From IMG/VR virus record IMGVR_UViG_3300025889_000465, positions 1 to 34,211 of that record: a stretch of DNA of 34,211 nt; one strand, given 5' to 3'. Position numbers and translations under genes: made by a program. A model generated the notes under the pieces. It saw only the letters and a program-made list of their open reading frames with translations, was not told where the DNA came from and ran no database searches. Numbering within the stretch: position 1 is the stretch's first letter; each line of letters opens with the position of its first letter. Shown piece by piece: positions 65 through 13,019 of the stretch. This DNA comes from a virus.

Positions 65-868
65 TTAGCATCCGCAACCGCAGTTCAGTGTTCCAGTTCC
101 ATTACAATCTACAAGCATATCATTGATATCGTTGTAGATATCTTGTGCGATTTCATATTCCGTACATTCAAATGCTTGGCGCATACGATCGTATTCAAAT
201 TTTATAGCAGCGTAGTCCGATTTGCATAAATCATTCAATGCTAACTTACCAATCGCACATTTTAATTCCTCATCACGCAATTGATATGCTGTTACTTGAA
301 CAGGCAAACTATCAATTGTCCAAGTAAAATCATACTGCCACACGCCTTCAGCAAGTGTAACATAAGAAGTCAAATCATATCCATAATTATTAATCCAATA
401 ACTACTAGATACAGGAATTGCACTAAGTGCAGTTTTGTTTGGAGGGGTTATGACAAGATTAATATTGCTAACACGAGCACGAACATCATTGTACGGAGTA
501 AGTGAATGTGTTCCTGTAAGAGTAGCATTGTTCAAATCAAGATAAGGTATCAAACCAGGATAAGTAGGATACAAAGAAAATCGCAAACTATTTGCATCGA
601 CTACATTCACATACAATTTAGTTCCTGTGGTAATAGAAGCCATTCCTGACCCACTACCAAAAGTGTAAGTCACCACTTGACCCATATAAAAACCATGATC
701 GTTCAAGGTTAATATATCCGTACTCACATTGACACCTGTTGTAAAAGTGCGAGCCGTTTCCGCAATCCAACCGCCAGGGTTTGTTACTGCATCGTAATTA
801 CCAGTTGCATCGATAATTCCCATGCTCGTAGCAGTATTTACGACATTAGTTTTGATAGTTAGTGCCAT
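65..868 (-). CDS. putative tail/appendage protein with Cys-rich C-terminus
   Basis: This 267-residue protein lies downstream of the giant internal protein in the virion operon. Residues about 40-100 form a beta-rich module of the type 'LTLNDHGFYMGQVVTYTF ... KLYVNVVDANSLRFSL', a short sandwich seen in many phage tail and virion proteins. A second beta region follows (about 128-195), then a charged helical stretch (about 196-250, including DEELKCAIGKLALNDLC). The protein ends in CNGTGTLNCGCGC, whose closely spaced cysteines could bind metal or form disulfides. No enzymatic motif is visible. The start at 868 is supported by a consensus -7 box four bases upstream and by the adjacent stop of the giant gene at 885. 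The exact role (fibre, adaptor or receptor-binding protein) is inferred from position only. Confidence 0.75.
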   Translation of the reverse strand: MALTIKTNVVNTATSMGIIDATGNYDAVTNPGGWIAETARTFTTGVNVSTDILTLNDHGFYMGQVVTYTFGSGSGMASITTGTKLYVNVVDANSLRFSLYPTYPGLIPYLDLNNATLTGTHSLTPYNDVRARVSNINLVITPPNKTALSAIPVSSSYWINNYGYDLTSYVTLAEGVWQYDFTWTIDSLPVQVTAYQLRDEELKCAIGKLALNDLCKSDYAAIKFEYDRMRQAFECTEYEIAQDIYNDINDMLVDCNGTGTLNCGCGC

Positions 869-872
869 ATCC

Positions 873-903
873 CAAATTTACGAATTATTCTTTAAATTTC
901 AAT
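873..903 (-). promoter_or_regulatory. Bacteroidota-type promoter, probably leaderless
   Basis: On the minus strand ATTG, a 19-nt spacer and TAAATTTG (complement 880-873) match the -33 TTTG / -7 TAnnTTTG pattern with one mismatch. The -7 box ends four bases before the ATG at 868, so transcription would begin at or next to the start codon. The -33 half overlaps the end of the 4044-residue gene. Confidence 0.55.
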
Positions 904-3900
904 TTCTCTTTAGGCAGTCCTTGTAGGATGGGTCCGAGCCCTTCTGCATTAGCCATACGGAGGTATTGTTCCTCTGTAAATACACCATTAGCAAGTCCTT
1001 CTAGTAAAGCTTTACGTTGTATTTCTCTATATTCAACAGTACTCTCTAAATTAGAAAGATTTTTGTTAATAGCATCAACAATACCACCACTTCTTTCATA
1101 AGTCGTAGGATTCATAGGACCATAAAGAATAGTTTCTATTTGCTCTTCTGCAATTTTATAGTATTCTTCATCCTCTAATTCATTTGCTAGTCTCTGCAAG
1201 TTTTGCGTTTGTTCTTGAATCTGCTGTTGGTCATAAGAATTTCTAACAATATCTCCTCGTAACAAAGCAAGTTCTTTTTGGTATTTCAATGGAATATAAA
1301 TAGAAAATTCTCCTTGTGCGTCTTTTGCTTTTAAGTAAGGATCATAGAATCTTGTAAGAACTTGATAGTCTTTACGACTTCCGGTTGCTTCTTGATACAT
1401 ACTAATAAGATTAAAGAGGTTTTCAGTAGCAATTGTACCCAACTTATTTCTCATATAATCCTCTTTGTCAAAGAACTTTGTTGTAGTTGAGATGTATTCT
1501 ATATCAGCATTTTCGTCTTCGCTTGACACCAAATTTTTGAAATTTGAACCACTAGCAATATTTTTCTTAACTCCATAAATCTCACCATTGTACTCAATAA
1601 TATCACCAGGTTTATACGCCTCTTTATTGTCAAATGTTTTAACACTAGAAACAAAACCTTCATATGTACTCATAGAGAAAGGATCAAAACTTGCTTGGAT
1701 ATAAGCAGCAACTCTATCGCTCAATTCGCCAGAACGAACATCCCAAAATGTATTCTTCTTGTATAGTTCTTCCCCGTGAGGCCCAATCTGTGGCACATAA
1801 AACGGAGAGGCAAATGGACTCAAGAACTCACCCTTAGAATTTTTCAAACCAAAAAGAGAAATAGGTGACCTACCTGTCAAAGAGGTCCACAACTTGGCTC
1901 TGAATACACCCATTGCCGCTTCATCTGGTTCCAAATCAGGATAGTAATTTCTCATTGAGTCAACAGTTATACCTTCTGCCTTTTCAACAGCCCCAAATAC
2001 ACCATAGGCCATTGTAGGAACCGTCAATATAGTCTTGCTCAAGTTCAATAAAATATTTTCAAAACCTTGTTCTTTTGATTTTATTGCACTAATTGCGCTT
2101 GCAATGGTCTGAATAAAACTCAAACTAGTAATACCATTTGTAATAGATTCGGCAATCATACTTGTTGTTATTGATGAAAGCATTTCATCTGGCATACCCA
2201 TAACATTTTCATTTGCACGCTCTGTGGCTTTTGCTCCATAATAAAGAGATGAGATATAACTCATAGCAAATCCAACCATTCCCGCATTCACATAGTTAAT
2301 TGTAAAATCACCTTTTTGATAAGTACGACCAGTCACATCTTTACCTGACATCCACTCCAAAAGGTGGGTAATGTTTATTTTTCCTGGAGGTTGGTTTGCA
2401 ATATTGGCCGCACGAGCTGCTTTTCTTTCGTCTGGGTCATCACCATATGGTGCTCCAATCGCACCACTCATCAACAATATACCGATAAAAGCAGCAACTT
2501 GCATTGCTTGGAATGTGTCTACATATCCTTGGGCAACAGCTCTCTGTTGTTCAAAAATACTCTGACGCATTTTTTCTTGTTCCTTCAGCTGATATGGAGT
2601 CAATTCTGCATTTTTATCAAGACCAAACAAGTTTTCATACTCTTCCATCATTGTTGTTAGTTTTGATTGCTGAAGCAAAGCATCAACTAAAGCCCAACCA
2701 GGAACAGTTTTTCTCAATGCCTGAATCATAAAGTTAGGTGGAATACGAGTAAATGGGCTAAACGCAACTCCTCCCGCAGAAGCAGCGGCATTTGCTGCTA
2801 ATTTTAAATTTTCTTTTCCTACTGGTTTCTTTTGGGTTTTGAAGAATATTTTTCTAGCCGTAATCTGTTTTCTTCTTCTTTCGCTAGAAGATCTTCTTTT
2901 ACCAACCCAATCCGTAAGTTTGTTATCATTGGCAAAAATCCTTTTGCTACCTGCACGTTCAGCCATAAAATCAGCATTTTTTCCGGGAGCAGAATTCAAA
3001 CGAATGAATTTTTTAATCTCTGCAGGGTCTGTTATTCCTTGTGAGGCAGCAAAAGAAGCAAGTGCTTCATAATATCCCATTTTGTAGAAAACACGGTCAC
3101 CCGAAAGAGCAATTGATTTACCAACAGCAGTTGGAATATATCCGAATATGCCTCGCAAAAGCGTTGTAGCAGCGGTATATCCCTTTGGATCCATAGTTTC
3201 TAATTTGTACTTACCATTTGCATCTTTTTCATTCAACATCAACAACATTTCATCAAACATATTCGCCCATTCTTCATCTGACATCTTCAAATCTTCTCTT
3301 TTGAAAACATTTTTCATCAATGTCACAAGCATTTTACCGCCAACAACCAATTCGCTCATAGAATCGATTTGATTTTGTCCGTTCAAAAATCCATTCTGAG
3401 AAGTACTAGATTCTGCAATCGTATTTTCTAAAATGTTTCTGATTTGCTGAACACCTTCGTTCCAAGCCAAACTGCGATACAAATTGGAGTCGACATCGGC
3501 CATCGCACCTCTTTTTACTAATTCTGATGCAGCTGACAAATTATCCTTCTGATTCCACACAGCAGTAATTTTGTTTGCAAGTCTTCTGCTCCATCCAAAA
3601 AGTTTAGTGTTGTATCCTTTGTTGGCCAAATACATTTCAAGGTTACCAATAGCACCAATAACAACAGTTCTAAAACTCAACAAAGCAACTGCTTCCATTG
3701 AGGTAAACCATCTTGTGTTGCTTTTTCTTCTAAACTTATCAATTTCAAGTTTCAATGCACGAGCAGCTTGTTCAAATTCAATTTTTGTTTTATCAAAAAT
3801 TTCATATTGGGCATCTGTATATGCACTAGCAGGAGCAATCTGCAAATTGTCAAGTTCAGCATCATATTTTGCTTTGGCTTCTCTGAACAACTGAATCTTT

Positions 3901-6900
3901 TTTCTGATTCCATTTTTCTGAGTAGGTGTTAACTTAAATGCTCGTTTTTGACGAACAATAGCCATTTTTATGTTCTCACCCTTAGCAACTTCTGTTTTAT
4001 AGGTAATGTTCTCTAAACTTCTAAAGATGGCCTCTTCAAAGTTTTGTTGGTTATCAAACAAACCTTTACCCATTCTCAACATACGACCAGCAAGAGACAA
4101 AAGTCGAGCAACATTGATTTGAGTATTGGGATCAACCTCACCACGAGAAATTTGCTTGAAGACGGCTATGTCTTGTTCAATCTGCTTTCTTTTTTCTCTG
4201 ATATCATTAGTGACTTGAAGCAAAGCGAATTCCATTCCGGTTTCCTCAAGAGCCTCGGCCATCATATCTATCATAGCCTCGTTGTCAATAACCCCATTTG
4301 TAAAACCAAACAATCTATTCATTTGGTCGGCCATATCTACCAACTTACGACTACGAGCATCATTTTTGACTTCACGCAAGAAATCACGATTGTACAATTT
4401 ACCTTTTGCTGTTTTGGCCTTTAGTGTTTTCTCGATAGTTTGACGATAGTTTTCACCAAATATGTCATCTAATTCCGATGGTTGGAATCCTTCTTCATAG
4501 AATGCTTTATAGATTTCAAAATCTTCATAGCCTTGTTTTTTAAGTACATCATACATTGATACGGTACTAAGTTGAGGATATTTGCCCAACTCAACTCGTA
4601 TTTTTTCTTGGCGTTTTCTGATTTTGTTTTTATGCTTTCTGATAGTACGAGCAAACTTGTTTACAGCAGCCCTAGACCAATACTCTTCCATTTCTGGAAT
4701 ATATCGTTTGATTTCTCCGGGAGTGTAACCAATTTTCTGTAGTTCGTAATATGCACCTATTCCGCTGAATCCATTACGCAGCAAATCATTCCAGTCGTCT
4801 ATTACATCTTGTCCTGCTACACGACCTTTGTTGATGATTTTGGTAGTATCCTTGATAAGAGGGACAGCATTTTCATTCCAATAACTCTGAGTCCCAATCT
4901 TATACATATTGATATCTTCCTTGGCATCACGATACCAATCAATAGAGCGTTGGATGCTCTGTTGGATATCAAAGCCATTGTAGTTATCACGAACAAAATT
5001 CCATTTGTGGTGATAGATTTGAGGATCAGCTTTTTGTTTTGTTACACTTACTTCACCATTCTTTTTAACCTTATAGGCATCTCCTACAATTGGTTCTGAG
5101 GCCGAATCCCAATCGGGACTAGCAATGAACGAGAATGATCCATCAGCAGCATTGTATTTGATTACTTCATACTCAAAATCCTCTGGCAATTTGCTCTCGG
5201 CATTAATTAGGGCTTGTTGAGGAAGAACATCATTGGCACTCTTATGAACATAAAGTTCACCGCCAATCATTTTGCCTACATCACCTTTGTAACGCTGAGG
5301 AATACCATAGGCTTTAGACTCTTTAACTTTCTCTTCAATTCTTGCCTTATTCTTGATACCGTGGATAGTATTACCATCAACTTTTGCCCCTTCCATTACT
5401 TGACCACGATTATCGGCAAGAATGATGTTTCCAGAGCGAGTTACATTAGCAAAATAGGCTTGAATTTCAGGCACATACCAAGCGGTGGCTTGGTTATTTT
5501 GCCAACTTGTTTCGCCTGCTGTTTTGGTTTCTTTTCCAACACCACGGTCTTTAGGATCCCCTTCGTAGATTTGGAATACAGCAGTACCTTTTGTACCAAC
5601 AGCATTTGCCATATTGGCGATAACACCTTCTCGTGCTTCTGCCTCAGCAATAACATTCAATACGTTTGGAGATACAGCAACATCTGCATTTCCATCACGA
5701 ACCATACTAATTGTTTCCTCGTTTACCTCAGCAGGTTGGTTGAATGGGTCATAAGGGAAATAAGAAATTTCTTTGTTACCCAAAACTTCCTCCAAGGCAG
5801 GAATTGCTTTTTCACTGAGCATCTTCTTGGAAGATTCGTTGATGAACTCGGCAATTTCTCCTTTTTCCAAAAGAGGTTTGATGTTCTGATTGGCGTACTT
5901 TCCACTTCCGATATCGGCAATTACAATGCTATCACCAGGTACGGCTTTCAAGATGTTCAAGAACTTCTTGTCGCTGTAAACACTTGGTAACTTAGCCTTG
6001 TTGATTGAAGTACCAGCAGAACTGATTTCTTGCTGTGGTGTACTCCAAGGTTCAATACGACCCTTGCTCTTAGTTTTTTGGGCAGCTTTTAGTTTTGCCG
6101 TGGTGTCTAAGATTTCTTGCTTTACAAGTTCGACCCCAACGTCACTATGGTCTCGGCCAAACTCTTGATTTCCTCCTGTGTCAAATTTTCTAGTTCCATC
6201 TTGATTTGTTAGTTGTTTATTAATTTCTTTTTCGCTGTAGCCATACGACTTAGCCAATTTCTTAGCGGCTGACTCATAATCAGGCTGCTCATTATCGCTT
6301 GTTTCTTCAGCACCAAGTTCTTCTGTTCTTCCTTTTTGGAATGTTTGATACAATGCTTTTTCAGGATACCAGTTTACGGCTTGCAAGTCAGCAATTGTAA
6401 TGTCCAAACCATATTCATTTTTTAGTTTACTTTGAACTTCATCAAATACACTTATGATGAAATTCCTCTGAGTCCCATTCTTTGGTGCTTCAATTTCTCC
6501 TTTTGTATTCTTGCTAAGAGAATTACCCGCCTTACGAACCTCATCAAGATTTTTACTCTGCTGAAGGATTTCTCGTTTTTCTACTTTGCCGCTGACTTTA
6601 GCAATTTTATCAGATAATTCTGTTGGGCTGTAAGAACGATAGTTTGGAATTAAGCCTTCAAGAATATTTTTTTCTTTTGTGCTTAAAGCCTTCAGCGTTT
6701 CTTTGAGACGATTAGTACCATCTGTAACTTTTGCAGGATCAACATCAATCAATCTTCCAGTCAAGCGACCATATTGACGCATAAACCAACGATCCATTGT
6801 CAATTGGCTAAAATCACCATACAAATTCATAAAGAATCCGTTGCCAATTTTAGGACCAAAAATAGATGCTCCAAATACTACAGTATCTCCATTAAATCCT

Positions 6901-9900
6901 GTTGCTATACTTTGCAAACTACCTTTAGCGTCTCTGTATTTTAATTCACCAGCTTTGAACTTACTAGTCAAGAACTTGATAAACTTGTCCTTTGGTAAGG
7001 TCTTTAGTATCTCATTGGCAAGAACAAAAGTTGATTTGATTCCTGCTGACTGAGTCCCAATCGACCTGCTTTCATCAAATCTTCCGTTGTCTTTAAAATA
7101 GTTATATTGACGATCTGCTTCAATAAAGTTATCAATTACCTTATTACCATTACTTGTTACAGCAACAGCAATTTTAAACATACCAGCAGCAATAGGATCA
7201 GTTTTTATCTCAGGATGAATCAAAGACATAATTTCCATTGCGGCTTTAGTTTTGGCATCATACCAACCCAAAGCATCTGGGAATGATTTCATTGCCACCA
7301 ATGTTTCAAATACATAAGCGTCAACCAAATATGCTTTAAGAGCATCATTTTCCTTTTTAGGATCAAAATTCTCTCCATATTGTTTTTTCAACATTGGAAT
7401 AGAAGAATTGAACCTGTCTTGTAACGCTCTCTTAAACTCCAGATTAGTAGGAATCTCTGACTCACTTGCAAATGCCAAAGCATTTGGAATAGAGTTATTT
7501 ACATCATACAATACAGATGGAATATTTACTTTTACACCATCAATGGTAAGTTCTTGTGTATTCTTATCAAATTCAACAGTTCGTGCTTTGTTACGAATTT
7601 GCTGAATATCTTTTGTTTGCTCTTGCTGTGATTTGGGTTTCAGATAATCTTTAGGCTGGAACCAATCTTGCTTAAATAACCAACTTTGATATGCTCGTGG
7701 AGTAGTGGTAAACCATTCTCCTTTATATTTACCAAATGGGAGTTGGAAGTCATCCTCTGTAGATTCATATACAGGTTCTTCTTCCACACGACCTTTGCTC
7801 TTGAATTTTTCAAAAACTATTTGCTGGTACGATACTCCATTGTTTTTAAAGTCTTTAAAATAACCTAAAGAAGAATCTACTACTGCAATATAAGGTTGCC
7901 CATCTTGACCTTTAGCCCAATATAGATTTTCACCATGCAAATCCAAAAGCGTAAGACCCAAAGATTTCTTATAAGCATCAACATATCCACCTTCATCTAT
8001 ATCTACATCAAATCCTAAACTTTTAATAAAAGTCTCAATATCATTATCTGATACTTCCACGGCATCAGGCCATGGTTCGTGGAATGGTTGTTTGGTTACT
8101 ATTCCAAATTCAGACCCTGTGTCAGGATGATAAAAATCTGTAAACCCTAATATTTCTACAGCACTTTCTGGAAAAATAGAATTTGTTATTTGGGTCTTAA
8201 TCAAAAAATCTAAAGTATTCCAATGCATTTTGTTTGGATGAGTAAGTTTATAAACATACTTACTATCGCTACCAATATATACTACAGACTCAGTACCTTT
8301 CCCTAATCTTTGTAAGCCATTTTTATCAAATACATCATATGGGTTTTCAAGATATACATTGTTTTCTTTTGACCAATTTTGAAAAAACTGATCAATAACA
8401 TCGGTATCTATACGTTCATAACCTTCTACTTCTTTGTTTTCATATCCGAATTTTCCGTTTTTTTGAATTTCGGCATCGGGATTCCATCCCATAACTTCAA
8501 GAATTCTTGTGGCTTCATTGGCAATCTCTTTTCCCACGATGCCAGTAAGTTCTTGCTCCGTGACTGGTTTTCTGGATTCTTCCACGGAAGTTCCAATTTC
8601 TTCGATTGGTCTTTCATTTGTATATTGTTTTAAGTTTTCGTTTATTGTTTTTGGTTTTCTAACCCAAGTTTCTCCGACTTTTTCAAATCCAGCAACAGCA
8701 AAGTATTCAGCATCATCATAATAATGCATTACCTCTCTTTCATATGTTGTATCTGTATTCTGAAAAAATAATTTTTTTGGATTAATAACAATTGTTTTAT
8801 CATTCTCATCGGCAAAAGAAACTAAATCATCTACAAATTTTTTTGCTCCAATTATTCCTGCAAAGTCATATTCACCGATTTTATATTTAATGTCTCCCAA
8901 AGAAATTTTTCCGTTTTCATCTTCATTATATTTAATTGAGAGTTTTGATTCTTTATATTTATCCTCAATAGAACTGAAAAATTCTTCTGTTGGTTTAGCC
9001 TCACTTTTTACTTCAGGTTGAGGTTCTCTGTACATTGCCTCTTTAGTAGTGAAATCTTTATTTGCACCTTTGTTTTCAACAAATCCAAACTGCTTATAAA
9101 AATTCACTAGCCTTGAAACACTTGTACCACCAAAATCTGTAGATGGTGTCAAAACTATTCTTCTGTTGTTTGCATCAGCATAAGCAATAATCTCTTGCAT
9201 TACTTGCTGACCAACACCTTGACCCCTACTATCTTCTGGAACAACTATACGACTCAAACTCAAATCGCCTTTTGTTTGATTCCCCATCAAATCTAAAGTT
9301 ATTCCATATTTCAGTTCCATTGCCGTTGAAAAATCAACAGGGCTAATTTCTGTTAGTCTAGCTTTACTTCTTACTTCTGCTCCTGGTTGTGCAGTTGTTG
9401 GTTGCTCAGTTACAGGTGCTGCTTCTTTTTTAGAAACTTTAGCCTGTTTAATGCCTTCACCCTTACGGATAGATTCAGCAATAGTATTGAAAAAGTCTAA
9501 CACCTCTTGGGTATCCTTAAACTCTTGGAACTTAATACCTGCTTCTTTACCGATTGATTTAATTATTTTATTAATGATGGCAAGCAAACGTTGGAAGAAA
9601 CCTGGGTCTTCTTGTGCGATTGTCTCCGCATTCTTACTAATCATAGCAGTGAATTCAGTAATCCATTCTTCTGCTTGATCTGTTGTGCTATAGGCATTAG
9701 CAAATCGATTCAAATATGCACCGCCTTGCTGTGTTATATGCTTTTCTATTTTGTCTTTAAACTCTTTGAAAACTTCTGAGAACTCGGTATCATACTTTGT
9801 ATTGATATCATTAAGTGTCTGAGACCATTCGGCATCCGTTCCAGTGTGTGCTTTCTTGGCACGAGCAATTTCAGCATCTCTGCCCTCGTGATTAAAGAAT

Positions 9901-12900
9901 TTATTATAGAGAATCCCGTGAGTTACCTCGTGAGCAATATCAGCATAATTGCCCTTTTCCAAATCAATTTGAATTTCGATTTGACGTGTACCATCTAAAT
10001 TCTCTACAATAGAAAAGTTTCCTTTGCGATTTGCACGCTCACCAATATCCTTCATTTTTTGACGGAATGAATCTGTGGTATGCAAAACTATGTTTACACC
10101 AGGAAGTACGCTCTGAAGCGTGCTGTTGGCGTTATTTGCAATAGCGATGAGTGTAGCAGCATTCTTACGCTCACGAGGATTCTTGATATTAGCAAGGAAC
10201 TCTTGGGTTGCTTCCGATTGCAAATCAGCAGAACCCAATACAGCATTCTTATTATTTCCAGTTACACTTTCAAATGTTGCTGTCTTGGGAGTTATATCAC
10301 TGATTCTTTGGTCAAACTCTTGGTTGATAGCCGCAACCTTCTGTTCGTATTCGGCTTGCTGCTCTTGACTCTGAGGCCCTTCTGCACCATATAGTTCTTC
10401 CAATGCTTGTTTACGCTGTTCATTAAGAGTATTGATTTGGTCCTCTACATTACCTGCTGGTTCGTATGGAACGTGTTCACTAGACTCTGCTGAAACAACA
10501 GCATCATTTGTTTGACGAGTTTGTTTATCTGCTATTTTATCCTCAACAATTTTAAGAACTTGTTCAACTTCTTTTTTCTTTTCCTCTGTGAGAACTTCTC
10601 CATACAAAGCAGCTTGTGTTGGATCTTCTAAGATTTGACGCAATTTTGCATTTGTTGCAGTCAAGATTTTTAAGTTAGCAGCACCAGAAAAACCAGCCGA
10701 TGTTATTCCAATAACAAGCAACTGATCCAAAGCAGATTCCATATCGTGCCCAAATGCATCTCTAAAGTTCTTATCTATGTCAATACCGTTATCTATCATA
10801 ACTTGTAGATACTGACCTGCGTATTCTTGAACAGTTTCTGCTGTACCACCAGCGATAGTTCTCACCAAGAATTCTGGGATTCTTGATCCACTAGCAAATA
10901 GTTTCTCCAAGTTTAGAGCATTGACTGCCATTTGTCCGACTGCTTCACCCGCACCTGTAGCAAATCCTTGTCCTGCCGCTTGAAAGATTGCACCTTGGCG
11001 AATCATATCTGATGTATTGGCAAATACCATTTCACCAGTCTTGCCGTATTTGGTCTTCAAGAGATTGTTAAATCCTTTTGCCCAACGCATAGCGGTGATT
11101 TCTGGAACTAGCATATTACCCAATGCAATTTGTACCATAGCATCGGCAAGCATACCTGCACTACCTGAAATTGTTTCTGCTACACTTGCACTAGCGGCAG
11201 AACGCAAACCACTTGGAACCGTATAACCAGATTGCTCCAATGCATCCAATACGCTGTTTCTTGTATTAAATTCAGAATTTGCATCTTCTGTGCTTAGACC
11301 CGGAACAAATTCTCTGCCGATACTTTCAGCGGCAATTCCTAAATTTTTGACAACAGATTCCATAAGACTCTCTGTTTGTTTACGGAGAGCCACATTTTCA
11401 TTCAGCATTACGGCACGATTCAAACCATACAGTTCACGCATAACGCTATATAGTTGACTATTATAGTCTTCCATTTTACGTTTGTACATTTCTGCATCAA
11501 CCTGTCTGCCATCAGGTAGATAAATAAGACCACTTCCTTGACTAGCAATACTAGCCATTACGCTTCTTGAAATAGCATTCCAAGACCCTTCTTCAGGAAT
11601 ATCAAGCCCATCTTCAGCCATCTTGTTGATGATGAATGAGCGTTGAGCCATCAACTCATCTCTTCTTTTAACAAGAACATCTTTGGGCTGATCGCTGTAT
11701 TTTATTTGAAAACTTTCGTTTTCTTTTTGGATATCTTGAACTTTCTTTCTATTGTCTTGAATGCGTGTATCTACAAACTCACCTGTACGCCAATCGTATA
11801 GATTGTTTGGGTTGTCTCTAAGTTCGCTCAATTGGTTCTGCAAAGATTCCAATTGCCTATTTATATCAGTAACAGTTCCTGTAACACCATACTCAAGCAT
11901 CTTCTTTCTCAAGATTTCCATCTGCTGAACGATGGCATACGCTTCTTTCTCAGAGCCTTGCAACATATCAAATGAGCGATTATGCCAATAATTGATATAT
12001 GCTTGGTTTGCCAATCCTTGGTTGCCATACTGAGCCAACAAGGTTTTCTTCAGATTATCACTTTCGGTCTTTGCTCCTACTGCAACATATTGTTGCTTTA
12101 AGCGCAAGATTTCATTATCTGCTTGTTCTTCGGTGAACCCACTAGCAATAAGGTTATCTTTAATGGAGTTCTCATCAATGTAGTTGTAGTTATTTCGACC
12201 ATCCAACAAATTTTGTTGAGGGTTTCTAACATCGACTTTCTGACCTGTGCCTTTAGAGAAGATTTCAAGTTTATCTCCTTCAAACAAAGCACGGCCAATG
12301 GCATACTCGTCTAAATCAAATGAAATACCTTCAGGCGTTCTATATTCATATTGACCAGCATCAATCCCCTTGAAAAGTGAATTATCATCTTGCTTGAATG
12401 CGATGATTTGCTCATCTTCTTCGGCTTGGCTCTTAGCCTTCATATCGGCTACAATAGCCTTACCTTTATCAATTGCTTCAAAATCAATAGTTTGAATCTG
12501 AGGCATATCGGAAGCCCATTGTCTTTCTTGTTCAAGTTGACGAGATTGGGCTAATTCCTCCTGAGTAACAACCTTTTTCTGCGGAGGAGTATAAATGTTT
12601 CTGTTTTGGTAAGCCTCTTCCTGGGCTCTTTGAATAGCCTCTGGAGCTTGAAGTGCTTTCTTTTGTTCAGGCGTAGTTGGGAAACGCTCTTCCCACGTCT
12701 GACCCTTGATAGGACCAGTGGCTGTAGGCAATAAAGTTTTACGAGGCGCAAACGGATTTACAGGACCAGGTTGCTCACCTCCATCCGATGGCGAAGTAAA
12801 TAAAGAATCTGCGCTTTCGTCTTTTTTTTTTAAAGTTGAAAGAAAGTCATCTTTGCTTACTTGAGCCTCTACACCTAACTTGTTATAAAATGCCTCTTGC

Positions 12901-13019
12901 CTTTCAGGAGACATTGATTGTAAGGTAGTTGCAAAATCTTCTGGAGAACTGAATAGGGCTGCAAAATCTTCACTCTGAGATAATTGAGTATACAGATCGT
13001 TTACGTTTCTGATAGCCAT
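885..13019 (-). CDS. giant (4044-residue) multidomain polyvalent virion protein
   Basis: One uninterrupted 12.1-kb frame follows two internal-virion-type genes, the place where short-tailed phages encode proteins ejected with the DNA. Modules in order: a helical N-terminus; hydrophobic helices (about 620-800); a HEVTH zinc-peptidase motif at 1030-1034 with a possible third ligand E1122; a GNAT-like acetyltransferase (R1265..G1270); a second, degenerate GNAT-like unit (about 1343-1455); a kinase-like domain (K1591, DLHGEN at 1693-1698, D1715); LPFGKYKG at 1760-1767; an unassigned domain (about 1815-2226); a Rossmann methyltransferase-like domain (D2369xGxG); an unassigned IGGELYVHKS domain; a long helical C-terminal half with apparent membrane-compatible segments near 3500-3530 and 3580. 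A basic motif of type K-S-K-G-R recurs at module borders. Family knowledge: this matches the 'polyvalent proteins' of phages and conjugative elements, thought to act in the recipient cell. Ejection and processing are inferred. The start is favoured by a TATCTTTG box four bases upstream. Confidence 0.85.
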   Translation of the reverse strand: MAIRNVNDLYTQLSQSEDFAALFSSPEDFATTLQSMSPERQEAFYNKLGVEAQVSKDDFLSTLKKKDESADSLFTSPSDGGEQPGPVNPFAPRKTLLPTATGPIKGQTWEERFPTTPEQKKALQAPEAIQRAQEEAYQNRNIYTPPQKKVVTQEELAQSRQLEQERQWASDMPQIQTIDFEAIDKGKAIVADMKAKSQAEEDEQIIAFKQDDNSLFKGIDAGQYEYRTPEGISFDLDEYAIGRALFEGDKLEIFSKGTGQKVDVRNPQQNLLDGRNNYNYIDENSIKDNLIASGFTEEQADNEILRLKQQYVAVGAKTESDNLKKTLLAQYGNQGLANQAYINYWHNRSFDMLQGSEKEAYAIVQQMEILRKKMLEYGVTGTVTDINRQLESLQNQLSELRDNPNNLYDWRTGEFVDTRIQDNRKKVQDIQKENESFQIKYSDQPKDVLVKRRDELMAQRSFIINKMAEDGLDIPEEGSWNAISRSVMASIASQGSGLIYLPDGRQVDAEMYKRKMEDYNSQLYSVMRELYGLNRAVMLNENVALRKQTESLMESVVKNLGIAAESIGREFVPGLSTEDANSEFNTRNSVLDALEQSGYTVPSGLRSAASASVAETISGSAGMLADAMVQIALGNMLVPEITAMRWAKGFNNLLKTKYGKTGEMVFANTSDMIRQGAIFQAAGQGFATGAGEAVGQMAVNALNLEKLFASGSRIPEFLVRTIAGGTAETVQEYAGQYLQVMIDNGIDIDKNFRDAFGHDMESALDQLLVIGITSAGFSGAANLKILTATNAKLRQILEDPTQAALYGEVLTEEKKKEVEQVLKIVEDKIADKQTRQTNDAVVSAESSEHVPYEPAGNVEDQINTLNEQRKQALEELYGAEGPQSQEQQAEYEQKVAAINQEFDQRISDITPKTATFESVTGNNKNAVLGSADLQSEATQEFLANIKNPRERKNAATLIAIANNANSTLQSVLPGVNIVLHTTDSFRQKMKDIGERANRKGNFSIVENLDGTRQIEIQIDLEKGNYADIAHEVTHGILYNKFFNHEGRDAEIARAKKAHTGTDAEWSQTLNDINTKYDTEFSEVFKEFKDKIEKHITQQGGAYLNRFANAYSTTDQAEEWITEFTAMISKNAETIAQEDPGFFQRLLAIINKIIKSIGKEAGIKFQEFKDTQEVLDFFNTIAESIRKGEGIKQAKVSKKEAAPVTEQPTTAQPGAEVRSKARLTEISPVDFSTAMELKYGITLDLMGNQTKGDLSLSRIVVPEDSRGQGVGQQVMQEIIAYADANNRRIVLTPSTDFGGTSVSRLVNFYKQFGFVENKGANKDFTTKEAMYREPQPEVKSEAKPTEEFFSSIEDKYKESKLSIKYNEDENGKISLGDIKYKIGEYDFAGIIGAKKFVDDLVSFADENDKTIVINPKKLFFQNTDTTYEREVMHYYDDAEYFAVAGFEKVGETWVRKPKTINENLKQYTNERPIEEIGTSVEESRKPVTEQELTGIVGKEIANEATRILEVMGWNPDAEIQKNGKFGYENKEVEGYERIDTDVIDQFFQNWSKENNVYLENPYDVFDKNGLQRLGKGTESVVYIGSDSKYVYKLTHPNKMHWNTLDFLIKTQITNSIFPESAVEILGFTDFYHPDTGSEFGIVTKQPFHEPWPDAVEVSDNDIETFIKSLGFDVDIDEGGYVDAYKKSLGLTLLDLHGENLYWAKGQDGQPYIAVVDSSLGYFKDFKNNGVSYQQIVFEKFKSKGRVEEEPVYESTEDDFQLPFGKYKGEWFTTTPRAYQSWLFKQDWFQPKDYLKPKSQQEQTKDIQQIRNKARTVEFDKNTQELTIDGVKVNIPSVLYDVNNSIPNALAFASESEIPTNLEFKRALQDRFNSSIPMLKKQYGENFDPKKENDALKAYLVDAYVFETLVAMKSFPDALGWYDAKTKAAMEIMSLIHPEIKTDPIAAGMFKIAVAVTSNGNKVIDNFIEADRQYNYFKDNGRFDESRSIGTQSAGIKSTFVLANEILKTLPKDKFIKFLTSKFKAGELKYRDAKGSLQSIATGFNGDTVVFGASIFGPKIGNGFFMNLYGDFSQLTMDRWFMRQYGRLTGRLIDVDPAKVTDGTNRLKETLKALSTKEKNILEGLIPNYRSYSPTELSDKIAKVSGKVEKREILQQSKNLDEVRKAGNSLSKNTKGEIEAPKNGTQRNFIISVFDEVQSKLKNEYGLDITIADLQAVNWYPEKALYQTFQKGRTEELGAEETSDNEQPDYESAAKKLAKSYGYSEKEINKQLTNQDGTRKFDTGGNQEFGRDHSDVGVELVKQEILDTTAKLKAAQKTKSKGRIEPWSTPQQEISSAGTSINKAKLPSVYSDKKFLNILKAVPGDSIVIADIGSGKYANQNIKPLLEKGEIAEFINESSKKMLSEKAIPALEEVLGNKEISYFPYDPFNQPAEVNEETISMVRDGNADVAVSPNVLNVIAEAEAREGVIANMANAVGTKGTAVFQIYEGDPKDRGVGKETKTAGETSWQNNQATAWYVPEIQAYFANVTRSGNIILADNRGQVMEGAKVDGNTIHGIKNKARIEEKVKESKAYGIPQRYKGDVGKMIGGELYVHKSANDVLPQQALINAESKLPEDFEYEVIKYNAADGSFSFIASPDWDSASEPIVGDAYKVKKNGEVSVTKQKADPQIYHHKWNFVRDNYNGFDIQQSIQRSIDWYRDAKEDINMYKIGTQSYWNENAVPLIKDTTKIINKGRVAGQDVIDDWNDLLRNGFSGIGAYYELQKIGYTPGEIKRYIPEMEEYWSRAAVNKFARTIRKHKNKIRKRQEKIRVELGKYPQLSTVSMYDVLKKQGYEDFEIYKAFYEEGFQPSELDDIFGENYRQTIEKTLKAKTAKGKLYNRDFLREVKNDARSRKLVDMADQMNRLFGFTNGVIDNEAMIDMMAEALEETGMEFALLQVTNDIREKRKQIEQDIAVFKQISRGEVDPNTQINVARLLSLAGRMLRMGKGLFDNQQNFEEAIFRSLENITYKTEVAKGENIKMAIVRQKRAFKLTPTQKNGIRKKIQLFREAKAKYDAELDNLQIAPASAYTDAQYEIFDKTKIEFEQAARALKLEIDKFRRKSNTRWFTSMEAVALLSFRTVVIGAIGNLEMYLANKGYNTKLFGWSRRLANKITAVWNQKDNLSAASELVKRGAMADVDSNLYRSLAWNEGVQQIRNILENTIAESSTSQNGFLNGQNQIDSMSELVVGGKMLVTLMKNVFKREDLKMSDEEWANMFDEMLLMLNEKDANGKYKLETMDPKGYTAATTLLRGIFGYIPTAVGKSIALSGDRVFYKMGYYEALASFAASQGITDPAEIKKFIRLNSAPGKNADFMAERAGSKRIFANDNKLTDWVGKRRSSSERRRKQITARKIFFKTQKKPVGKENLKLAANAAASAGGVAFSPFTRIPPNFMIQALRKTVPGWALVDALLQQSKLTTMMEEYENLFGLDKNAELTPYQLKEQEKMRQSIFEQQRAVAQGYVDTFQAMQVAAFIGILLMSGAIGAPYGDDPDERKAARAANIANQPPGKINITHLLEWMSGKDVTGRTYQKGDFTINYVNAGMVGFAMSYISSLYYGAKATERANENVMGMPDEMLSSITTSMIAESITNGITSLSFIQTIASAISAIKSKEQGFENILLNLSKTILTVPTMAYGVFGAVEKAEGITVDSMRNYYPDLEPDEAAMGVFRAKLWTSLTGRSPISLFGLKNSKGEFLSPFASPFYVPQIGPHGEELYKKNTFWDVRSGELSDRVAAYIQASFDPFSMSTYEGFVSSVKTFDNKEAYKPGDIIEYNGEIYGVKKNIASGSNFKNLVSSEDENADIEYISTTTKFFDKEDYMRNKLGTIATENLFNLISMYQEATGSRKDYQVLTRFYDPYLKAKDAQGEFSIYIPLKYQKELALLRGDIVRNSYDQQQIQEQTQNLQRLANELEDEEYYKIAEEQIETILYGPMNPTTYERSGGIVDAINKNLSNLESTVEYREIQRKALLEGLANGVFTEEQYLRMANAEGLGPILQGLPKEKLKFKE
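4875..5336 (-). other. unassigned IGGELYVHKS module of the giant protein
   Basis: Residues about 2562-2715 follow the last basic linker motif. They contain KMIGGELYVHKSANDVLP, FEYEVIKYN, SEPIVGD and IYHHKWNFVRDNYNGFD, ending before a helical segment. The H/K/D-rich pattern looks enzymatic and I recall similar stand-alone phage proteins of unknown function, but I cannot name the family. Confidence 0.35.
5370..6053 (-). other. class I methyltransferase-like module of the giant protein
   Basis: Residues about 2323-2550 contain SIVIADIGSGKYANQ (D2369, G2371, G2373: SAM-binding loop), a second strand ending ISYFPYDPFNQP (D2424) and VAVSPNVLNVIAEAEAREGV in the position of motif IV and the following helix. 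This arrangement (YDPFN then VLNVI) is that of a stand-alone phage methyltransferase family of unknown target. A basic linker motif sits on each side (R2321, R2560). Confidence 0.6.
6342..7577 (-). other. unassigned module of the giant protein
   Basis: Residues about 1815-2226 lie between two basic linker motifs. The segment is mostly helical, with distinctive conserved-looking stretches IFGPKIGNGFFMNLYG and DRWFMRQYGR near 2054-2085, and DLQAVNWYPEKALYQ near 2210-2225. Similar 'DLQA.WYPEK' phrases occur, from memory, in other large phage proteins. I cannot assign an activity. Three copies of the 10-mer signal overlap or flank this part of the gene. Confidence 0.35.
7635..7757 (-). other. short FGKYKG module of the giant protein (DUF3820-like)
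   Basis: L1760-P-F-G-K-Y-K-G1767 followed by TTTPRAYQSWLFKQDWF matches the small 'PFGKYKG ... P..YL.WL' module annotated as DUF3820 and found near nucleases and in phage proteins. It is bordered on both sides by basic linker motifs (K1740-R1744 and R1809-R1813), so it would be released as a very small unit if those are cleavage sites. Confidence 0.5.
7815..8402 (-). other. protein kinase-like module of the giant protein
   Basis: Residues about 1540-1735 contain LGKGTESVVYIG (Gly-rich loop from G1573), VYKL with the candidate ATP-binding K1591, LLDLHGENLYW (1691-1701, matching the kinase catalytic loop HxDxxxxN in a variant D-L-H-G-E-N form) and AVVDSSLGYF with D1715 in the place of the DFG aspartate. 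A Ser/Thr kinase-like fold is known among polyvalent-protein modules. Activity and target are not shown by the sequence. Confidence 0.6.
8650..8993 (-). other. second, degenerate GNAT-like module of the giant protein
   Basis: Residues about 1343-1455 repeat the outline of the preceding module: FVDDLVSFADENDKTIVINP parallels the helix-strand of the first copy, and FAVAGFEKVG parallels its FYKQFGFVEN end. The acetyl-CoA loop is lost (GAKKF where the first copy has GQGVG). This suggests tandem duplication followed by loss of catalysis, or an independent GNAT-like scaffold. The call rests on pattern similarity read by eye. Confidence 0.4.
9024..9356 (-). other. GNAT acetyltransferase-like module of the giant protein
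   Basis: Residues about 1222-1332 read as a compact GNAT fold. A beta strand leads into IVVPEDSRGQGVGQQVM, with the R-G-Q-G-V-G acetyl-CoA pyrophosphate loop at 1265-1270. A helix-strand unit (IIAYADANNRRIVLTPS) and the typical end FYKQFGFVENKG follow. The module starts directly after the first basic linker motif (R1217-R1221). The substrate is unknown. Confidence 0.65.
9480..10277 (-). other. zinc metallopeptidase-like module of the giant protein
   Basis: Residues about 915-1180 contain YADIAHEVTHGILYNKFF. HExxH (H1030, E1031, H1034) is the zinc-binding and catalytic signature of gluzincin/zincin peptidases. A Glu in EEWITEF (E1122) sits 88 residues later and could be the third ligand. Peptidase modules of this kind are known in polyvalent proteins. 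Here it could act on host targets or release the other modules of the same chain. Confidence 0.6.

Follow-up and report, generated by a model that had tools for sequence, protein, structure and literature searches.

A short border motif in a giant phage polyvalent protein is a candidate recognition site for its embedded peptidase

The window analysed here, a virus record of 34,211 nucleotides (34.2 kb; IMGVR_UViG_3300025889_000465) that is itself a fragment, encodes a giant polyvalent protein in which a short motif occurs six times; [F/I/V/T]-x-[S/N]-K-[A/G]-R-[L/I/V/T] describes it best. All six copies are at module borders, in the stretch that runs from the HEXXH peptidase module to the C-terminal part. 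The motif is selected at the protein level and we propose, with a probability of about 0.68, that it is the recognition site of the embedded peptidase, which would cut the chain into separate effectors; the cutting, the enzyme and its fold, the exact bond and the timing are what we infer.

An initial annotation of this DNA had described [K/R][S/N]K[A/G]R as a possible self-processing signal shared by the borders. Its five pentapeptides are indeed found at residues 1217, 1740, 1809, 2317 and 2556 (window 9354-9371, 7785-7802, 7578-7595, 6054-6071 and 5337-5354), and the HEVTH peptidase-like module does precede the first of them, by 187 residues. The annotation had overlooked one more site, INKGRV, which starts at residue 2729. 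The core of the motif is real, with a hydrophobic residue usual two positions before S/N and with R replaced by Q in most homologues, but the leading K/R is present in only 15 of 47 sites and was dropped. The weak site QKGRT at 2228 reads QEGKT in an otherwise conserved homologue (L002) and is not a site. Most borders carry the motif, as claimed, while at least one likely border, between the GNAT and kinase modules (about 1345-1540), does not. The idea of a shared signal came out favourably from the tests that can be run on sequence; its definition, site count and QKGRT site needed correction.

The pattern [KR][SN]K[AG]R was observed five times in the 4044 residues against 0.033 expected from composition, a post hoc figure for which the homologues are the real test. 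In the six-frame translation of the window, [FIVTL]-x-[SN]-K-[SAG]-[QR]-[LIKVT] gave six matches, all in the giant protein, and the seven-residue motif matched once in 190,928 residues of other open reading frames (ORFs).

A portal scan led to 57 loci, and the records behind them, together with C-terminal and peptidase scans, yielded homologous giants in L002, L076-L086, L092, L097, L099 and L119 (L083 and L084 form one close pair, L080 and L119 another). We compared 12 of these proteins, all from uncultured relatives, of which 11 have the peptidase domain and one (L076) lacks it; the quantitative tests used the window protein and the 11 peptidase-bearing homologues (L002, L077, L078, L079, L080, L081, L083, L085, L092, L097 and L099). 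The motif was present in 11 of 11, as SKAR, SKSQ, NKSQ or NKGQ. The swappable region, from the peptidase to the C-terminal part, contained 47 sites in 10,918 residues, compared to 7 in 29,085 residues outside it (Fisher 7e-20, indicative only), with densities per 1000 residues of 4.3 in this region, 0.24 in the rest of the giants and 0.07 in other genes (n=260). Five of six class permutations of the motif gave 2-6 sites in the swappable region, and the sixth, which also matches SKSQ, gave 24. Unbiased pattern scans returned SKAR as the top pattern in L002 and SKSQ in L080 and L097. A chance origin in a K/R-rich protein had to be weighed here, as short patterns in proteins of such length can have single-protein P values down to about 1e-8 with no evident meaning; we give it almost no credence, because the motif recurs at corresponding borders in the 11 peptidase-bearing homologues and permuted motifs or other genes do not behave in this way. 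One match, at residue 744 of L002, was rejected as a border site, since it recurs as NKGR in L076 inside the conserved N-terminal region.

The position of the sites was then compared with the borders, which were defined from alignments of the same proteins. Thirty-six of the 47 sites lay within 15 residues of a recurrent BLASTP edge (random, 13.7 ± 3.1), and 24 of 35 did so when the last site of each protein was removed (random, 8.9 ± 2.6). The C-terminal part opens with the motif in 10 aligned proteins, the motif K being one of 9 invariant columns of 223. That the motif should follow the borders when modules are swapped was borne out by a methyltransferase cassette of the homologues. The motif stands before this cassette in L097, L119/L080, L078, L083 and L099 (the L081 site at this place is SRSQ) and again after it, ahead of differing modules: L097, L119 and L078 have the C-terminal part there, L083 and L099 have other modules, in L099 a kinase. 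The order unassigned module, site, methyltransferase is common to the window and L097 within one BLASTP match, with R motifs in the window and Q motifs in L097, and the motif at this cassette reads SKSQ in L097, NKGQ in L099. The letters of the motif drift jointly within a protein: the 4-mer identity between sites of one protein was 3.07 versus 2.47 after shuffling, and 3.24 versus 2.89 (P 0.004) in the Q clade alone.

The codon differences between copies, put forward in the initial annotation as a sign of selection on the protein, are present, and across the 12 proteins 122 of 252 same-residue pairs agree in their synonymous codon compared to 113.9 expected from codon usage. The synonymous codons are free, and selection acts on the protein. 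This, and a conservation that spans only about seven residues, makes it very improbable that the motif is a DNA-level relic, such as a recombination site or a recently duplicated linker mediating module swapping, in spite of the modules being clearly swapped and the linker after the peptidase being widely shared. This low-complexity linker (AVQEQT..VPVQPEA.VGEEVVEGKPQ.EPQVT) follows the peptidase in L077, L078, L079, L081, L083, L084 and L085; a similar one is found in L002 and in the elemo phage L003, where the recognisable version is upstream of the peptidase. It is possibly a shared recombination linker.

The L076 giant (L076:3318-12581) has lost the whole metallopeptidase domain and kept the N- and C-terminal parts and the kinase module; both ends are about 40% identical to L002 and the window, and the kinase module is 49% identical to that of L002. 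The two of its borders that allow a comparison, at the kinase and the C-terminal part, read EAVGPQPKTNLQEI and KKAPRPTF, compared to VSKARRDS and INKGRV/ISKARV elsewhere, and no match to the seven-residue motif was found in this protein. The AlphaFold2 (AF2) models, built from 12-row alignments and modest (mean predicted local distance difference test score, pLDDT, of 65 and 70), placed window site 1 in a segment with pLDDT <50 (residues 1191-1222) and both L097 sites in low-confidence segments flanking a confident methyltransferase fold. All three modelled sites are in low-confidence linkers.

These two observations bear on an uncut tag, which could serve in docking, packaging or ejection or form a structural cap at the opening of each module. 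The motif does stand directly before each module and at the opening of the C-terminal part, and a capsid-localisation signal exists for another phage head effector, P1 DarB (PMC9024508). We nevertheless consider a tag unlikely, since the motif is in a low-confidence linker and not in folded structure, and L076 keeps its modules yet has no motif at two borders; the joint drift of the motif within a protein is consistent with a single recognising partner, and a docking protein could be one as well. The same loss in L076 argues against processing in trans by another protease, a separate phage or host enzyme, which we judge quite unlikely. The motif is nearly absent from the other proteins of these phages, and no protease was found in a Pfam scan of ten window ORFs, though the record is a fragment. 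In favour of such an enzyme, phage proteases can cut many head proteins in trans at a short motif, as SPN3US gp245 does at AXE (PMC10052503), and the fold of the embedded peptidase has no database confirmation.

The HEVTH domain is a predicted zincin-like metallopeptidase. H81, E82, H85 and E169 are invariant in the peptidase alignment A1, with E169 in a predicted helix, so that the HEXXH helix is followed by a glutamate on the next conserved helix as in zincin-like metallopeptidases. The AF2 order of elements (helix, three strands, HEXXH helix, Glu helix) agrees with the description of the metallopeptidases of polyvalent proteins (PMC5512222). A search of PDB sequences with the peptidase profile gave chance-like matches only.

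The giant would consist of a conserved N-terminal part with the embedded zincin-like metallopeptidase, a swappable effector string and a conserved C-terminal part. The peptidase would recognise [FIVT]-x-[SN]-K-[AG]-R-[LIVT] (in most relatives with Q for R) in the inter-module linkers and cut the chain there, most likely between R/Q and the next residue. This bond is a guess, made because zincin-type metallopeptidases commonly favour aliphatic residues after the cut and because 36 of the 47 sites have L, I, V or K directly after R/Q. Cutting, in the head or after ejection, would free the N-terminal and C-terminal pieces and the effectors, among them an acetyltransferase, a kinase and a methyltransferase. 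Six cuts after R would give seven pieces of 1221, 523, 69, 508, 239, 173 and 1311 residues, the second of which would keep GNAT and kinase joined, since their border has no motif.

Several points weigh against this proposal. No peptidase model reached the cut-off in a Pfam scan of the domain, the weak sub-cut-off matches being SprT-like (E 0.11) and M54 (E 0.028), both zincins, and GNAT folds filled the list when the peptidase-GNAT model was compared with PDB folds, with no zincin among them. The virion RNA polymerase of phage N4 has such a peptidase domain and yet is packaged uncut, according to the peptidase section of PMC5512222. The GNAT/kinase border lacks the motif, the modules outnumber the sites in L078 and L081, and the argument from motif loss rests on the single homologue L076. 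Finally, the homologues are related and not independent, which makes the P values indicative only, and the motif was widened to [SN]K[ASGP][RQ] once the homologues had been seen.

The motif may also be more general, as an exchangeable protein-level "cut here" code by which a motif-flanked cassette would be plugged in and then released by the embedded protease, code and protease drifting in concert, with SK[AG]R as the version of the present clade, SKSQ/NKGQ as that of its sister clades and perhaps F[ST]P as that of L082/L086; we advance this tentatively, at somewhat less than even odds. Among the more distant relatives, L082 had no motif match and L086 had three, all before its peptidase. The motif was not found at the borders of the giants of elemo, DC33 and ctEw122, and the search for a comparable repeat in elemo L003 was also negative. 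More copies of F[ST]P than expected occur in L086 (7 versus 0.8 expected; residues 564, 1328, 1559, 2418, 2442, 2729 and 2826) and in L082 (5 versus 1.0 expected; residues 106, 2068, 2101, 2238 and 2455), and TFSP is the top unbiased pattern in the L086 swappable region. It may be another cleavage code, a lead in which some copies look domain-internal. No relatives were found by the N-terminal scan of viral contigs or by the scan of genome contigs with the C-terminal alignment. If the code exists, the motif would let effector cassettes be plugged into phage giants and released. A site that tracks borders, and that is not seen at two borders of a homologue without the protease, makes the autoprocessing prediction directly testable; the motif predicts where exactly each piece begins and ends, and in giant phage proteins it would help to locate new effectors and the borders of modules.

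The features of the giant protein are given in Table 1. It is polyvalent in having several effector or conflict domains in one polypeptide, with GNAT and Kinase-PolyVal above the Pfam cut-off in the window and Methyltransf_23 and Kinase-PolyVal in homologues. Module 2562-2727 is also found in a separate gene product (KVP40.0371) of Vibrio phage KVP40; when KWGVGKDIGGSLYVH of KVP40 and KGDVGKMIGGELYVH of the window are aligned by eye, the KVP40 start codon corresponds to about window residue 2556, at motif 5. In L099 (from residue 1318) and L002 (from 1277), a related HGG-type module, identified by eye only as possibly an ADP-ribosyltransferase, directly follows the first motif, the module orders being otherwise different.

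Table 1 Features of the giant protein and their positions in the window
Feature	Residues	Window	Strand	Remark
Giant polyvalent protein	4044 aa	885..13019	(-)	near end of portal/capsid/tail gene run
N-terminal conserved region	1-950	10170..13019	(-)	common to homologues, including peptidase-less L076
Predicted zincin-like metallopeptidase domain	950-1160	9540..10172	(-)	alignment, AF2 order of elements
HEVTH motif of the predicted active site	1030-1034	9918..9932	(-)	
Border motif 1, VRSKARL	1216-1222	9354..9374	(-)	in low-pLDDT linker 1191-1222
GNAT module	1223-1345	8985..9353	(-)	Pfam Acetyltransf_7 above cut-off; GNAT folds best in PDB, Z 6.5
Kinase-PolyVal module	1545-1703	7911..8387	(-)	Pfam PF18762, E 7e-15
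Border motif 2, FKSKGRV	1739-1745	7785..7805	(-)	
Small FGKYKG module	1746-1807	7599..7784	(-)	sequence; weak PF12843 match, E 0.007, below cut-off
Border motif 3, IRNKART	1808-1814	7578..7598	(-)	VRSKARK in L002
Module, function unassigned	1815-2315	6075..7577	(-)	also in Limnohabitans phage DC33 and L097
Border motif 4, TKSKGRI	2316-2322	6054..6074	(-)	VKSKARL in L002
Methyltransferase-like module	2323-2554	5358..6053	(-)	within one colinear BLASTP match reaching into confirmed L097 methyltransferase
Border motif 5, IKNKARI	2555-2561	5337..5357	(-)	
Module	2562-2727	4839..5336	(-)	phrog_16075; homologous to separate gene product KVP40.0371
Border motif 6, IINKGRV	2728-2734	4818..4838	(-)	K invariant in 10 aligned proteins
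C-terminal conserved region	2735-4044	885..4817	(-)	motif-free

The window also encodes a portal, virion proteins, a RecE-like exonuclease, a DNA methyltransferase and an endolysin; the capsid has a weak crass-type match, and no nucleotide match of the window to known phages was found. The gene after the giant protein (window 65-868) has weak baseplate/tail-fibre PHROG matches. The giant gene follows the virion genes, a place similar to that of a 3694-residue annotated structural protein of Flavobacterium elemo phages. On the indirect evidence of this virion gene run and of the homologue annotated as structural, the giant protein probably carries several enzymes into bacteria in the virion. 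The record of Limnohabitans phage DC33 (L074, PQ492659.1) says Inoviridae, a classification that looks wrong: the genome is of 39 kb, with a 3125-residue giant and a gene order like that of podovirus ctEw122.

Among known systems, the elemo structural protein (MT497072) has a homologous HEIFH domain in addition to its size and gene position, and differs from the window giant in having no SK[AS][RQ] motif. P1 DarA and DdrB are packaged antirestriction-system proteins whose processing is reported or presumed, DdrB having a metallopeptidase domain; in the passages of PMC9024508 and PMC5512222 on these proteins, unlike here, no repeated inter-module sites are described and the mature DarA N-terminus is not resolved. 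Iyer et al. 2017 (PMC5512222) predicted that polyvalent proteins are processed by the metallopeptidases they contain, and the window protein resembles the proteins treated in their peptidase section in its GNAT and Kinase-PolyVal modules and HEXXH domain. It differs from them in that a candidate cleavage motif, tied to the presence of the peptidase, can be given for a whole family; no cleavage motif for polyvalent proteins was found in that section or in literature searches confined to open-access papers. For a short site, the nearest precedent in phages is the SPN3US prohead protease gp245 at AXE, which processes several head proteins (PMC10052503); it is a separate enzyme that acts in trans and mostly removes propeptides, whereas the sites described here lie between modules of one chain. 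By analogy, the closest functional counterpart is the MARTX toxin design (PMC6315884), one long chain in which an embedded protease cuts the inter-effector regions, as we propose for the window protein. The MARTX enzyme is unrelated, a cysteine protease that inositol hexakisphosphate activates inside eukaryotic cells, in contrast to the predicted metallopeptidase of this phage protein.

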